Shown: positions 46,205 through 59,293 of the stretch, piece after piece
Position numbering within the stretch: position 1 is the stretch's first letter
Layout of the letters: each line of letters begins with the position of its first letter
NCBI GenBank assembly: GCA_902500775.1
Contig: CABVRZ010000005.1
Span: forward strand, 1 to 64,000
Reading direction: 5' to 3'
DNA length: 64,000 nt
Source: an uncultured Nitrospira sp.
GTDB lineage: Bacteria > Nitrospirota > Nitrospiria > Nitrospirales > Nitrospiraceae
Notes under the pieces: generated by a model
Told to the model about the DNA's origin: nothing
What the model saw: only the letters and a program-made list of their open reading frames with translations
Databases searched by the model: none
Position numbers and translations under genes: made by a program

Positions 46205-47380
46205 ATGACACCGATGGCCCAGGTCCGCCTTATGTCACTCCGCGTCCCGGAGGGACGGCCTCTCTGGCTCTTTGCCGGCCATGTTGGACCACTCACTGGT
46301 CAAGCCGCAGCCGGGGACTTGGTCGATGTCCTGACCCCCGACGGACAATTCTACGGGCGCGGTCTCTATAACCCTGCGTCCAAAATTCGTGTCCGTCTCC
46401 TGACATTCGAAGATGAACCGATCGATGAGACGTTTTGGCGACGGAGAATCCAGCAGGCCATCCGTCTCCGGCAGCGAGTGGTGACGCAGTCTAATGCGTA
46501 TCGGCTGATTTATGCCGAAGGCGATCGACTGCCGGGGTTGATCGTGGATCGCTACGATCAACTGCTGGTCATGCAGTGCCTCTCGTTCGGCATGGATAGC
46601 CGGAAGGAGCTCTTGGCCGATGTGCTGATGAAGGAATTAAATCTGACGAGTGTCTATCTGCGAAACGAGGCCAAGAGTCGGCAACTCGAAGGATTGCCGC
46701 TCGAACGGAGGTTTCTCTCTGGCAACGGTTCGACGCAAGTTGAGATTCATGAAGGGCCTGCGAAGTTTCTCGTGGATGTGGAACGGGGGCAGAAGACCGG
46801 CTGGTTTTGCGACCAACGGGAGAATCGACTGGCCGCCGCCAAGCTCGCGGCTGGAGCAGAGGTGCTGGAAGTGTTCTGCCATACCGGCGCGTTCGGCATT
46901 CACGCCGCACTCGCCGGAGCTGTATCAGTGGAGGGCCTTGATGTCAGTCAAGACACATTGGCCATCGCCAAAACGCATGCCACGATGAACAAGGTGGAGG
47001 ATCGCTGTATCTATCGGAAAGCCGATGCGTTCGAAGAGATGCGTAAGCTGGTGAAGGCGGGGCGACGCTATGACCTGGTGATTCTCGATCCTCCGGCCTT
47101 TGCCCGCAGCCAACAGGCCTTGGCCGGTGCCTTGACCGGATATAAGGATGTCAATCTCTTGGGCTTCAAGCTGCTGAAGCCGGAAGGGCTTCTCGTCACC
47201 AGTTCCTGTTCCCATCCAGTCTCGGAAGAAGATCTCTGGAAGAGCATCCGCCTCGCTGCCCGTGATGCCAAGCGGGACATCCGCCTAATCGAACAACGTG
47301 GTCAGAGCGCAGACCATCCCATCCTCGCCAGCATGCCGGAGACGCGGTACCTGAAGTGTTTCATAGTGCAGGCGTTGTAG
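46205..47380 (+). CDS. RlmI-like 23S rRNA methyltransferase
   Basis: A 391-residue SAM-dependent methyltransferase. It has an N-terminal PUA-like region, a middle strand-rich part with GDRLPGLIVDRY, and a Rossmann domain with VLEVFCHTGAFGIHAA and the catalytic VILDPPAFARS followed by SSCSHPVSEED. This is the layout of RlmI, which makes m5C1962 in 23S rRNA. AGGAGA precedes the start. A decayed copy of its 3' part lies downstream of cynS. Confidence 0.92.
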   Translation: MTPMAQVRLMSLRVPEGRPLWLFAGHVGPLTGQAAAGDLVDVLTPDGQFYGRGLYNPASKIRVRLLTFEDEPIDETFWRRRIQQAIRLRQRVVTQSNAYRLIYAEGDRLPGLIVDRYDQLLVMQCLSFGMDSRKELLADVLMKELNLTSVYLRNEAKSRQLEGLPLERRFLSGNGSTQVEIHEGPAKFLVDVERGQKTGWFCDQRENRLAAAKLAAGAEVLEVFCHTGAFGIHAALAGAVSVEGLDVSQDTLAIAKTHATMNKVEDRCIYRKADAFEEMRKLVKAGRRYDLVILDPPAFARSQQALAGALTGYKDVNLLGFKLLKPEGLLVTSSCSHPVSEEDLWKSIRLAARDAKRDIRLIEQRGQSADHPILASMPETRYLKCFIVQAL

Positions 47381-47505
47381 CAGGCTTTGGGGACAGCATC
47401 TTCATTCGGATTAGGTATGACTCTGCATGTGAATGTTACGGGCTCATCTATTGTCTCAGTGGTTCATGGTGATTGTTGAGAAAGTCTGATTCAAGGGAGG
47501 CCAGC

Positions 47506-47946
47506 ATGGAGAAAGACGCGATACGCAGCAAGATCAAGGCTGCTCGGCTCAAGAAGAAGCTGAAAATCGTCGATGTTGCCAAAGTTGTCGGGAAGAATTC
47601 CACGTTCGTGGCAGCGGCGCTGAACGGGAATCATCGGTTTACCCAGGCCGAAGCGGTGAAGGTCGGCAAGCTTCTGGGATTGGACAAGGAGCTTGTCCAA
47701 TCCTTGAGCCGTTTTCCGGTACGCACAGATCCGCCGAACATGGCGGACCCGTTTAAGTACCGGTTGCTCGAAATCATCGGTGTCTACGGTGATTCATTAC
47801 GCGAGATGGCAAACGAGACGTTCGGCGACGGCATCATGAGTGCGATCGATTTCACGTTGGATATGGAAAAGGTCACCGGCAGCCAAGGAGAAACTCGCTG
47901 CAAAATCACGCTGAACGGCAAATGGCTTGAGTATAAATCGTTCTGA
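47506..47946 (+). CDS. cynS: Cyanase (cyanate hydratase)
   Basis: A 146-residue cyanase that converts cyanate and bicarbonate to ammonia and carbon dioxide. The N-terminal HTH-like domain is followed by the nearly invariant C-terminal domain DPFKYRLLEIIGVYGDSLRE and FGDGIMSAIDF. The catalytic triad is intact: Arg86, Glu89 and Ser112, offset by ten from E. coli Arg96, Glu99 and Ser122. The start at 47506 follows AAGGGAGG; the longer frame is rejected. It stands alone, flanked by the intact rlmI-like gene and a broken copy of it, with no transporter or CynR nearby. In nitrifiers cyanase can supply ammonium for growth or energy. Confidence 0.96.
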   Translation: MEKDAIRSKIKAARLKKKLKIVDVAKVVGKNSTFVAAALNGNHRFTQAEAVKVGKLLGLDKELVQSLSRFPVRTDPPNMADPFKYRLLEIIGVYGDSLREMANETFGDGIMSAIDFTLDMEKVTGSQGETRCKITLNGKWLEYKSF

Positions 47947-47984
47947 CGAGAAGTGTATATTGGGTTGAGTGACACTATGGTTGA

Positions 47985-48156
47985 ATCATTTTTACTCGCC
48001 GGCGTTTACTCGCATCAGGCAGGCCTTGTCTGGTGCATTAGCCGAATATGCGGGACATCCGCCTGATCGAACAATGGGGCAGAGTACTGACTATCAGATT
48101 CTCGCCAGGATGTCGGAGCTGAGATGTTCAAAGCGCATCATCGTGCAGGTGTTGTG
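47985..48156 (+). pseudogene. Decayed fragment of an rlmI-like gene
   Basis: Two short segments match the intact rlmI-like gene in order. About 47985-48050 reads SPAFTRIRQALSGALAEYA where RlmI has PPAFARSQQALAGALTGYK. From 48049 the DNA GCGGGACATCCGCCT continues to GTGCAGGTGTTG, parallel to 47273-47378, with roughly three quarters identity by eye. The stretch between these two parts (about 125 bases in rlmI) is deleted, and the frame shifts. It lies just after cynS, so cynS sits between a gene and a broken copy of that gene. Confidence 0.75.
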
Positions 48157-48296
48157 GTCGGATTCTCTTTTCGCCGTTGATCAAACCGACTGGAAGGCTT
48201 TCTGGCCTCTTTGTGAATGGTTGCATTAATCAATGAAACATTGTGCAGCTCTCCGCTAATAGGTGAAGGATGTTCATGTGAAATGACTGCTTTCCA

Positions 48297-49688
48297 ATGA
48301 ACCATTTACACGAACAAGCATTCATAGATTTCGAGTTGCTAGTTTCAAGATGGAAGAAGGCGTATGTTTGTTCAGTCCATTCGTATGTGGGAGTAAAGAG
48401 CCACGAAGGTATACATCTCTTGGTTGGTCGGATATTGCTAGAACCAACAGGTGATGCTGTCAACGAGACTTCTATTCAATTTGAGACTGAACACTTGGTT
48501 GCAGGACGCTTCGTAAAGGCGACAACATTTGATTCTCTTTCGGAATTCATTTTGCACGCAAAAAATGGACGAATGGACACTGATAGAGGACCTATTTCTC
48601 TTGTCACAGATTCCTGTGGGACAATCTCTGCCTCTTTTGCACCGATTTATCATCCATTGATCTCGGATGGGCCAAGATTACCAGGTCTTCTCATTCATGG
48701 AACCCATAAATCCAACGTGCTGAAATCGCTATGGGATAACCGATCGTTCGATTGGGAGGTGAAGGCTGCCGATCCTCCTTTTGACTCATTGGATGAGCTT
48801 CTAAGCCATTGTGCCTTACCAACTCTTATGCAGATGGGAAACTTATCCACACTTGAAATTTTTGCTAAGACACCCGTAGTAGTTGGCGTAAACTCGTTGA
48901 TTAAAGGGACTGAGGCGATTATCGAATGCCGAGTAGCTAGGAAACTTGATCCGGGTAAGCTGCGTCTTGGCTATCGGATGCTGCAGAAGAACCAGCAGAT
49001 TGTTCGGGGAAGCGTGTGTGGGAGTAGTCTAGAGTGGCGAGAAGACAAGGATCTCTTGGTGGCATTTCATCGTATGGGAATAGGTGAAGCTTCTGTCATA
49101 CAGGCTTTCTTGAGCTATGATCAAACTTCTCTGCACCAATGGTGGGTTACAGATCCACAAAAGAGCCTCAACCCATGGCACGCAATTCATCAGATATTTG
49201 ATCAAGACTTGGATCTATTGCGTAAAATGCTTTTCAAGCCAGAAACAGACAAGCCATATGCATTCGAAGGCGCTGTTTCAACTTTGTTAACACTGCTTGG
49301 ATTTTCAGTTGCTAATTACGGTCGGATCCCAAAGCTTCAGAAAGGTCCTGATATCATTGCAGTCACACAATCTGGTCATGTGGGCGTCATTGAATGCACG
49401 GTGGGTTTGATCAATGAAGGTGACAAACTGGCAAAATTAGTCCAAAGAACTGCACTTATTAAAGATAAATTGGTTGACGCTCACTACGGACATCTGCAAG
49501 TGCAGCCCGCGATTGTTACGCCACTATCACGTGAAGAGGTGGCTGCCAACCTTCCACTGGCGGGGAGTCATGGCATTGCGGTCATCTGCAAGCAGAATAT
49601 CGAGAGTGCGTTGAATCAGGTTGCGTTCCCACCAAATGCTGATCGTGTATTCGAGGACGCAAAGAAGCTAGTTCCCGTTTCTGAGTAA
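48297..49688 (+). CDS. Hypothetical protein with PD-(D/E)XK nuclease-like C-terminus
   Basis: A 463-residue protein, AT-richer than its neighbours, which hints at transfer. The N-terminal 300 residues are of no recognised family. The C-terminal part contains FEGAVSTLLTLLGFSVANYG, then KGPDIIAV and HVGVIECTVG, then DKLAKLVQRT: the order of a restriction-endonuclease fold (E, PD, ExX). The usual ExK lysine is Cys here, so activity is uncertain, unless the Lys in the next helix serves. It stands alone with no ribosome site of strength. It may be part of a defence or DNA-repair function. Confidence 0.6.
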   Translation: MNHLHEQAFIDFELLVSRWKKAYVCSVHSYVGVKSHEGIHLLVGRILLEPTGDAVNETSIQFETEHLVAGRFVKATTFDSLSEFILHAKNGRMDTDRGPISLVTDSCGTISASFAPIYHPLISDGPRLPGLLIHGTHKSNVLKSLWDNRSFDWEVKAADPPFDSLDELLSHCALPTLMQMGNLSTLEIFAKTPVVVGVNSLIKGTEAIIECRVARKLDPGKLRLGYRMLQKNQQIVRGSVCGSSLEWREDKDLLVAFHRMGIGEASVIQAFLSYDQTSLHQWWVTDPQKSLNPWHAIHQIFDQDLDLLRKMLFKPETDKPYAFEGAVSTLLTLLGFSVANYGRIPKLQKGPDIIAVTQSGHVGVIECTVGLINEGDKLAKLVQRTALIKDKLVDAHYGHLQVQPAIVTPLSREEVAANLPLAGSHGIAVICKQNIESALNQVAFPPNADRVFEDAKKLVPVSE

Positions 49689-49759: not shown

Positions 49760-49970
49760 TCAGCCCTCCACGCCCATCCCGATCACGATGAGCACCGCAT
49801 AGTCTTGCTTCGTGCAGCCGTCGACCGGAGGCATTGCGCCTCCTGGCGCAACGGGAAAGGCTGATTGCTTCGCGTTGGTCGGTGAGCAGGAACCACTGCC
49901 CGTCACAGGGGTATAGCGTGCGGAACGGCAGGCCAGGTGTGTCACGTCGTAGAGCGTCGCGCCTTGACCA
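49760..49970 (-). pseudogene. Truncated duplicate of the exported protein encoded at 50886-51548
   Basis: Read on the minus strand from 49970, the sequence gives QGATLYDV, then THLACRSARYTPVTGSGSC, then NAKQSAFPVAPGGAMPPVDG, ending CTKQDYAVLIVIGMGVEG. This closely matches the last 70 or so residues of the gene at 50886-51548. No start or N-terminal part is present; homology stops near 49970. The rest of 49689-50131 shows no gene. Confidence 0.85.
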
Positions 49971-50131: not shown

Positions 50132-50551
50132 TCATTTTCCCACTTTCAAAAGCCATCCGTCGCCACGCTCACAGAGATTGGGGCCTTTCGCCGTAATAGC
50201 AACTCTGATGAAGGTGTCTTTGGCAGAGGCGGGGATCTTGCCGCTGACTAGAAACCCAGCGAAGTGAGGCGTCACGGTGACCGGGACGTTTTCGTCTTTG
50301 ATCATTACTGTAATGGTTTTGGGAAACGTCGCCTTGGATGCCACAAACGAAAATGCCGATTGCGGCGGGACTTCTGTATTGTTGTCTGTTTGTGAGTATG
50401 GCTTCGGCATGAACGTGGAAAACGATACGTCGCCGCAACCACTCGCGCTGCTAGAGCCGGGAGGGGGTGAATCATAGCCGGCCCCGACATCGCCGATGTT
50501 GCCGAAGGCACTTAGTGCCACAACGATCGCTAGGGTATGTCGAACATTCAT
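50132..50551 (-). CDS. Small exported protein, paralogue of the one at 58880
   Basis: A 139-residue secreted protein from ATG 50551 (GCGAGGT site; the longer frame is rejected), with a signal peptide ending near DVGAG. The mature part has a lone cysteine before DVSFSTFMPKPYSQTD, a central SAFSFVASKAT, and an end GDGWLLKVGK. The gene at 58880-59293 shares all these landmarks, so this is a small family of periplasmic or extracellular proteins. The fold looks like a small beta-sandwich with two cysteines (SGCGD and PNLCER) probably bonded. Function is unknown. Confidence 0.75.
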   Translation of the reverse strand: MNVRHTLAIVVALSAFGNIGDVGAGYDSPPPGSSSASGCGDVSFSTFMPKPYSQTDNNTEVPPQSAFSFVASKATFPKTITVMIKDENVPVTVTPHFAGFLVSGKIPASAKDTFIRVAITAKGPNLCERGDGWLLKVGK

Positions 50552-50885
50552 GATGATACCTCGCTGTTGATTGTTGATAGTGGCCGGGATGGCGGAGGTC
50601 AATGCGTATGCGCTATTGTGTAATTCTTGGGGGATAAAAAGCAAACCGCGGATGACTCGTAAGGACCGGTGGGAGCGGCTCGTTTGTTGTGGAGACCCTG
50701 CACTTTGTGGACGGGAGCATCGCGAATCTGGCTGAATGTTTCCTTCGAACTAAGCCCCGACGGTGGCGAATCCGCTGGGGGATCAAACCGTGCCGGAGGA
50801 TGCGACGTGTAGCTTCTGACCGAAAAAATGATGCGGGAGTCCTTTGTTGAGATTGATGTGCAAGGTGCCGGTGCACCACCGATAT
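50552..50885. other. Intergenic region without recognisable features
   Basis: This 334-base stretch lies between the starts and ends of two minus-strand exported-protein genes. Overlapping short frames have no ribosome sites or family features. I see no hairpin or repeat of note. Confidence 0.4.
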
Positions 50886-51548
50886 TCAGTCTTCCACACC
50901 CACCCCGGTCACGATGAGCACGGCATAGTCTTGCTTCGTGCAGCCTTCCACTGGAGGCATCGCGCCTCCTGGCGTAACCGGAAACGCCGTCTGCTTCGCG
51001 TTGGCCGGCGAGCATGAACCATCCACTATCGCCGGGGTATAGCGCGCGGAACGGCAGGCCAGGTGGGTCACGTCGTAGAGTGTCGCCCCTTGATCGAGCT
51101 CCCAGCGGCTGTTGCCATGGTTGTCGGAAGGATGAATCGTCAGCACTGCCGTGACCTTTCGAGCGCCGGTGACCACGTATTTCCCGGTAGGCAGTGGAAA
51201 GGTCGGCTGCTCCATGATCAACCCGTGTTCCTCCAGCCACCAGTCTGTCTCGTCGAACTTCCAGCGCGCCGGAGTGACGCCACCGGCATCCTTCAATGAT
51301 GTGTAGCGGTTCAGCTTCACGCCTCGAGGACCTGGGTCCAGGAGCCACAGACCCCACAATTGTGCGCCGTTCCCAGAGGTCGCGCCTGGATCGCCCAATG
51401 CTGCGATGTACTGTGTCGGAATCCGCTTGAACTTCGTTTGGTTTCGATCTGCGGCGTGCACCACCGGGGCCGCGACGGCGATTGTCACCAGCAACGCTGT
51501 CGCAAGGTATGCGCGGCGTATTCTGATTGTGCTGAGGGTTGACATCAT
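50886..51548 (-). CDS. Exported protein of unknown function, Cys-containing
   Basis: A 220-residue secreted protein (AAGGAA site before the double ATG; signal peptide ending near VVHAAD). The mature region has PTQYIAALGDPGATSGNGA, a Trp-rich middle (WKFDETDWWLEEHG), and a C-terminal part with four cysteines in THLACRSARY, DGSCSP and EGCTKQDY. It has no recognised family. A truncated duplicate lies at 49760-49970. Confidence 0.75.
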   Translation of the reverse strand: MMSTLSTIRIRRAYLATALLVTIAVAAPVVHAADRNQTKFKRIPTQYIAALGDPGATSGNGAQLWGLWLLDPGPRGVKLNRYTSLKDAGGVTPARWKFDETDWWLEEHGLIMEQPTFPLPTGKYVVTGARKVTAVLTIHPSDNHGNSRWELDQGATLYDVTHLACRSARYTPAIVDGSCSPANAKQTAFPVTPGGAMPPVEGCTKQDYAVLIVTGVGVED

Positions 51549-58879: not shown

Positions 58880-59293
58880 TTACTTCCCAACTTTTAAGAG
58901 CCACCCATCTGCGCGCTTACAGAGGGTGAGTCCTTCAGCATAAATGTCGACTCGGACGTAGGACCCCGTGGCGCTGGCAGGCAGCTTGCCTTTCACCAGG
59001 TAGCCATTTCCTTGCGGTGTGATTGTGATCGGGACCTTTTCATCCTTGACGTTGACCTTCAGGCTGTCGATACGGGTTGCCTTCGATGCCAGAAATGAGA
59101 AGTCTGACTTCGGCGCGGCCTCATTGCCCTTCTCATAGGAGTAAGGGGCGGGCGTAAAGGCGGAGAAGATCACGTCTGCACAGGAGCCCTCTGCAGTACC
59201 GATATTCGGACTGGCATCGTACGCCAAGACGTGGCTCCCACTACTGCAAAGACCTACTACCAAGACAAGCTGTACAAGATTACGCAGACTCAC
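58880..59293 (-). CDS. Small exported protein, paralogue of the one at 50132
   Basis: A 137-residue secreted protein from a GTG start after GAGAGG, with a signal peptide ending near VLAYDAS. Landmarks shared with the gene at 50132-50551 are a lone cysteine before DVIFSAFTPAPYSYE, SDFSFLASKAT, VKDEKVPITITP, and the end ADGWLLKVGK. The second cysteine is in LTLCKRADG. Two members in one window, both minus-strand and near exported or decayed genes, suggest a lineage-specific family. Function unknown. Confidence 0.75.
   Translation of the reverse strand: MSLRNLVQLVLVVGLCSSGSHVLAYDASPNIGTAEGSCADVIFSAFTPAPYSYEKGNEAAPKSDFSFLASKATRIDSLKVNVKDEKVPITITPQGNGYLVKGKLPASATGSYVRVDIYAEGLTLCKRADGWLLKVGK

Follow-up and report, generated by a model that had tools for sequence, protein, structure and literature searches.

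Organisation of the rlmI-cynS locus

The window, which is the whole 64,000-nt stretch analysed here from an uncultured Nitrospira sp. (contig CABVRZ010000005.1, positions 1 to 64,000), carries an intact rlmI-like 23S rRNA m5C methyltransferase gene followed by cynS, two pieces of the rlmI 3' end, an ORF of unassigned family and a gene of the opposite flank (Table 1). The product of the rlmI-like gene matched the Pfam domains Methyltrans_SAM and PUA_3 as well as PDB 3c0k/YccW (E 1.7e-78). It scored 334 bits against NF053718 (equivalog cut-off 575 bits) and 295 bits against NF011707 (equivalog cut-off 712 bits), and because both scores are under the cut-offs we call the gene RlmI-like (rlmI below) and leave the exact target base unspecified. 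The cynS product scored 128.1 bits against TIGR00673, above the curated cut-off of 113.3 bits, and the catalytic R-x-x-E and S were readable in the motifs YRLLE and MSAIDF, which together identify the predicted protein as cyanase (CynS).

Table 1. Features of the rlmI hotspot in the window
Feature	Position in window	Strand	Remarks
rlmI-like 23S rRNA m5C methyltransferase gene, intact	46205..47380	+	left flank and anchor of the hotspot
rlmI 3'-terminal ~137 nt (exchanged tail)	47244..47380	+	sharp fall in differentiation between two Nitrospira clades
rlmI-cynS intergenic leader	47381..47505	+	common to other cynS-bearing Nitrospira; HSP with G032
cynS, predicted cyanase	47506..47946	+	TIGR00673, Pfam Cyanate_lyase
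rlmI remnant piece 1 (rlmI nt 852-939)	47963..48049	+	alignment, profile
rlmI remnant piece 2 (rlmI nt 1068-1176)	48050..48157	+	alignment, profile; stop decayed
463-aa cargo ORF, family unassigned	48297..49688	+	older hotspot cargo
Right-flank gene 3'-end remnant (aa 153-219)	49760..49966	-	tblastn 85% identity, E 1.8e-33
Right-flank gene, 220-aa predicted secreted protein	50886..51548	-	convergent with rlmI, 3' end towards the hotspot

The first-pass annotation had described two segments of the rlmI 3' region in order behind cynS with an internal deletion, and this was borne out. Piece 1 shares 57 identities over 87 bases with rlmI nt 852-939 (z = 18.5 over shuffles) and piece 2 shares 81 identities over 108 bases with rlmI nt 1068-1176. 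Both pieces keep the order and the strand of rlmI, 128 nt of the gene (940-1067) are absent between them, and the rlmI stop codon in piece 2 has decayed from TAG to TGG. The alignment against shuffled controls proposed in that annotation was better than the shuffles: in local alignments to rlmI, positions 47985-48045 scored 32 and positions 48045-48156 scored 79, as compared to 29 and 28 for the best of 1000 dinucleotide shuffles. A profile built from 47 rlmI genes detected the two pieces at E = 1.2e-6 and 1.8e-17. The start of the fragment had been placed at 47985, which falls within piece 1, and was refined to 47963. Long direct repeats flank cynS, with the rlmI 3' end before it and the two remnant pieces after it. 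The insert is cynS only, with no transposase, integrase or IS, and no mobile-element gene was found from rlmI to the right-flank gene.

The 463-aa ORF behind the remnant had no match in Pfam, NCBIfam or PADLOC and no PDB relative, and it was missing from the other loci fetched. Its motif GPDIIAV...VIECT recalls nuclease folds, by eye only. The right-flank gene has left a remnant of its own 3' end on the hotspot side, as it has in many relatives, sometimes twice. Two paralogous small secreted-protein genes (50132-50644 and 58880-59293, both on the minus strand) lie about 8 kb apart and are 47% identical; one of the pair is within the hotspot flank.

The rlmI 3' end is an insertion hotspot across Nitrospira

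Searches with the rlmI protein and with cynS covered 79 genomes of the genus, and about 55 loci were retrieved and brought into the same orientation. The locus is syntenic: a thiamine-diphosphate enzyme gene and rlmI are followed by a variable stretch of 0.1 to ~46 kb and then by conserved genes. At the short end of this range, the rlmI stop lies ~90-115 bp from the right-flank gene in G041, where that gene adjoins rlmI directly, and ~115 bp from a backbone gene in G059, which has nearly no cargo. Elsewhere the cargo varies between genomes. Among it are defence-type genes (DRT-type reverse transcriptases, an NgoMIV-type restriction enzyme, TIR, STAND), transposases, which in some inserts are of IS type, a toxin-antitoxin-like pair and genes for a metallopeptidase and asparagine synthase; the NgoMIV-type enzyme and a C5 methylase represent restriction-modification genes. 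The first-pass annotation had named conservation of cynS plus fragment at this place in all relatives as a finding that would refute it, and such conservation was not seen.

Of the 48 genomes in which this locus was present, 18 carry at least one rlmI 3'-end remnant behind intact rlmI, within cargo that varies between genomes. Every remnant has the orientation of rlmI and nearly every one reaches the stop codon. The repeats measure 37 to ~320 nt, and in a profile alignment of 24 remnants their 5' starts fell at several positions; no short remnant in either of the two rlmI clades reaches 5' of rlmI nt ~850. In G077 a toxin-antitoxin unit sits between rlmI remnants. In G032 intact rlmI is separated by a peptidase gene from a displaced rlmI tail plus cynS, and over 727 bp this displaced segment has 86% identity with the rlmI tail plus cynS of the analysed genome. 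The order of the pieces in G032 reads as that of a new arrival at rlmI that displaced the old tail and its cargo downstream. An assembly artefact is unlikely to explain the pattern, which occurs in independent assemblies including the near-complete G065 (rlmI remnants) and G064 (a cynS remnant).

Two further observations concern the cargo. In six genomes (L077, L088, L099, L103, L071, L072) the same toxin-antitoxin-like unit is found directly after rlmI or one of its remnants, with rlmI junctions near nt 961, 1051-1059 and 850. One hotspot (L088, in G055) contains two cynS copies, one of which is without its last five codons and is fused directly to an rlmI remnant.

The fragment behind cynS had been interpreted as a possible scar of cynS insertion by recombination after a tandem duplication, or of gene replacement. 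In the first case the second rlmI copy would have decayed afterwards. The two ordered, same-strand pieces are what such a duplication would leave. However, one-sided 3' remnants recur beside many unrelated cargoes, none of the short ones begins upstream of nt ~850, and the cynS/remnant junction is common to both rlmI clades. Similar remnants also occur behind cynS itself, as cynS remnants in G031 and G053 and an internal cynS piece in G064, and behind the right-flank gene. A tandem duplication is unnecessary given these recurring remnants, and we consider it very unlikely. The first-pass interpretation thus held up in part. Its reading of the fragment as a scar of gene acquisition is supported: most relatives have no cynS here, some have no cargo, and the cynS and rlmI trees conflict. 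The scar is not a one-off.

Similar remnants were also found away from rlmI. A survey of ~1.66 Mb (1.26 Mb of the analysed genome and 0.4 Mb of G001), with small counts and crude gene calling, found about seven other genes with a downstream 3' remnant and few mirror cases at the 5' end, the latter mostly repeats or tandem paralogues. Downstream same-strand copies of the last 22-63 codons were seen for genes of a DEAD helicase, a YchF GTPase, a UDP-GlcNAc epimerase, an AAA ATPase, a phosphatase-like protein and HupE/UreJ. The loci concerned are L134:681-3160, L175:9230-11202, L154:6013-8280, L187 with L188, L128:5351-12020 and L177:1763-11915.

Probable partial exchange of the last ~137 nt of rlmI between clades

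Differentiation between the two rlmI clades was followed along the gene. The mean allele-frequency difference between clades was 0.49 in rlmI nt 901-1038 versus 0.23 in nt 1040-1172. Clade-diagnostic sites run to nt 1038, none was found in nt 1039-1172 and one lies in the last codons. Clade identity drops abruptly at nt 1038. Of five control genes from the neighbourhood, four were flat and the fifth, the right-flank gene, was low throughout. Diffuse exchange along the whole of rlmI was rejected as clade identity is lost only in the last ~137 nt. For this tail, 86% of genomes still have their nearest neighbour in their own clade, which is why we regard the exchange as partial.

Remnants of the other clade's type are carried by G025 and G056; these and the tail pattern would be expected if foreign rlmI tails had entered repeatedly. 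Nearest-relative analysis of single remnants was mostly indecisive, the remnants being short and decayed; piece 1 of the analysed genome was nearest to the intact rlmI of the second-clade genome G031 (score 35) as compared to its own rlmI (score 25).

cynS and the remnant probably arrived together from the second clade

All cynS copies found at the rlmI site, 14 in number, group in a single clade (100/100). Within it the analysed genome and G032 are sisters (100/99) nested among second-clade copies, with moderate support at the deeper forks. In a tree of rlmI nt 1-1038, by contrast, from which gene only the host relationships are taken, both genomes fall in the first clade at separate places. 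First-clade genomes other than these two have no cynS at the rlmI site, close relatives included. The cynS of the analysed genome is ~82-93% identical, by window, to second-clade copies.

In G053 the stretch after cynS (TGACGAG...GCAGCTG) passes clearly into rlmI from nt ~855, and the same junction is present in decayed form in G031, G021, G055, G057 and the analysed genome. Remnants behind cynS that start later than ~855 look like deletion derivatives of this one junction. As the cynS/remnant junction is also found in the second clade, cynS and the remnant probably came together by transfer from that clade, with the 128 nt lost later. The scar was therefore probably not formed in the analysed lineage, its junction being common to a distant clade. 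We infer the direction of transfer, from the second clade to the analysed lineage, from one 438-nt gene tree with moderate deeper support, the transfer being old.

A single junction common to both clades would also be expected if the arrangement of rlmI, cynS and remnant were ancestral in both and had been lost in most first-clade members. This would require many independent losses among the first-clade genomes without cynS, and the nesting of the analysed genome and G032 inside the second clade of the cynS tree argues against it. We find common ancestry highly improbable. The analysed genome has an AmoA-family gene and is therefore comammox.

Proposed insertion at rlmI with duplication of the target end

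Together these data favour horizontal acquisition of cynS in a genus-wide hotspot at the rlmI 3' end by integrase-free insertion with target duplication, followed by spread between clades, and we give this reading a probability of roughly 70%. Incoming DNA with an rlmI 3' end followed by cargo would join the chromosome inside rlmI. The incoming end would restore the gene, and the end that it displaced would remain behind the cargo as a same-strand remnant. For the cynS insertion the long target duplication would originally have measured ~325 bp (rlmI nt ~852-1176), and remnants would decay afterwards by deletion. The unit of rlmI tail, cynS and remnant would then spread between clades, most likely by homologous recombination in the shared rlmI, and would have entered the analysed comammox lineage from the second clade.

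The main alternative concerns the joining step. A site-specific integrase could target the rlmI 3' end, as SGI1-type elements do at trmE, with the cargo being elements or their remains and the remnant the displaced attachment side. In keeping with this, rlmI is regenerated in every case and only its 3' end is left as remnants, remnants behind two different cargoes (cynS and the G077 toxin-antitoxin module) start at near-identical rlmI positions (nt 850-857), clade identity drops abruptly at nt 1038, and in G057 a tyrosine recombinase lies directly behind a remnant. However, when integrase genes were searched at the hotspot cargo no consistent neighbour was found: among 98 scanned cargo proteins there was one phage-integrase-family match, and its relatives lie elsewhere in other genomes. 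The repeats are long and decayed with no short core, and the remnants of the other-flank gene and of unrelated genes elsewhere would not be explained by one integrase. We regard a dedicated integrase as unlikely. A fixed 5' boundary at one short core was also considered, and was rejected on the several start positions among the 24 profile-aligned remnants.

An integron-like cassette system, in which the remnants would be attC-like sites for an integron integrase, was weighed on similar grounds. The cargo does include single-gene units separated by repeated elements, and an integron integrase (TIGR02249, 471 bits) is encoded in the G057 hotspot (L090:12705-13925) directly behind an rlmI remnant, with homologues in the genus at other places. 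TIGR02249 had no match in the analysed genome, though, and matched in 12 of 77 genomes. The rlmI tail is plain conserved coding sequence that folds no better than shuffles (z = -0.25 and -0.21 for the two strands). An integron origin of the remnants is scarcely credible.

We favour homologous or partly homologous recombination that duplicates the target end over an integrase because the cargo generally comes without an integrase, the repeats are long and have decayed, and similar remnants occur at the other flank and at other genes. We infer that joining was by RecA-type recombination. The near-equal remnant starts behind cynS and in G077, with the abrupt drop at nt 1038, could nevertheless reflect a site-specific step.

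A broader reading takes in the remnants at the other genes. Nitrospira may gain and shuffle genes without integrases by using the 3' ends of ordinary genes as docking sites, where cargo would carry the 3' end of a host gene as a homology arm, regenerate that gene and leave the old end behind, building arrays at rlmI, at the other flank and at unrelated genes (ychF-like, wecB-like, AAA ATPase, helicase). We put this forward tentatively, as a possibility that we would at present sooner doubt than adopt.

Significance and comparison with known systems

The presence of cyanase in comammox Nitrospira can be tied to a concrete insertion event with a junction that is traceable across species, in a hotspot whose cargo spans anti-phage defence to nitrogen metabolism. 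The locus bears on the question of how genes come to occupy chromosomal hotspots that lack a mobile element. On our reading the scar documents gene gain among these nitrifiers by a route with no visible mobile element; the gene-end remnants would be a written record of each entry, and comparisons of closely related strains would allow the joining step to be studied.

Spasov et al. 2020 (PMC7305129) reported cynS in the comammox MAGs RBC069 and RBC093, inferred lateral transfer, and noted toxin-antitoxin genes near cynS in RBC093, which is G077 of the present comparison. The portions of that paper available to us do not mention the rlmI site, the remnants or recurring insertions, and a literature search on an rlmI insertion site in Nitrospira returned nothing. 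Judging by the papers searched, what is new is the rlmI site, the record kept by the remnants, the genus-wide reuse and the gene-end exchange.

The locus resembles integrons and mobile gene cassettes in its single-gene units separated by a repeated element, but the analysed genome has no integron integrase and no attC-like fold. It resembles islands that target the 3' ends of genes, such as SGI1 at trmE (PMC8409611), in that the 3' end of an RNA-modification gene is targeted and regenerated. Unlike SGI1, the insert has no integrase beside it and no short fixed core, its cargo can be one gene, and its long repeats have decayed. Insertion with long target duplication has been reported for restriction-modification genes of Helicobacter pylori (Nobusato et al. 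2000, Gene 259:99, according to the accounts of it in PMC1643837 and PMC4978471). As in that system, genes are inserted without an evident element and are flanked by long direct target repeats, relatives have alleles with little or no insert (G041, G059), and the hotspot cargo of relatives includes restriction-modification genes. In contrast to it, the repeat in Nitrospira comes every time from the 3' end of a single housekeeping gene. Insertions return to this site throughout the genus so that remnants accumulate, a metabolic gene is among the cargo, and clades exchange the gene end.
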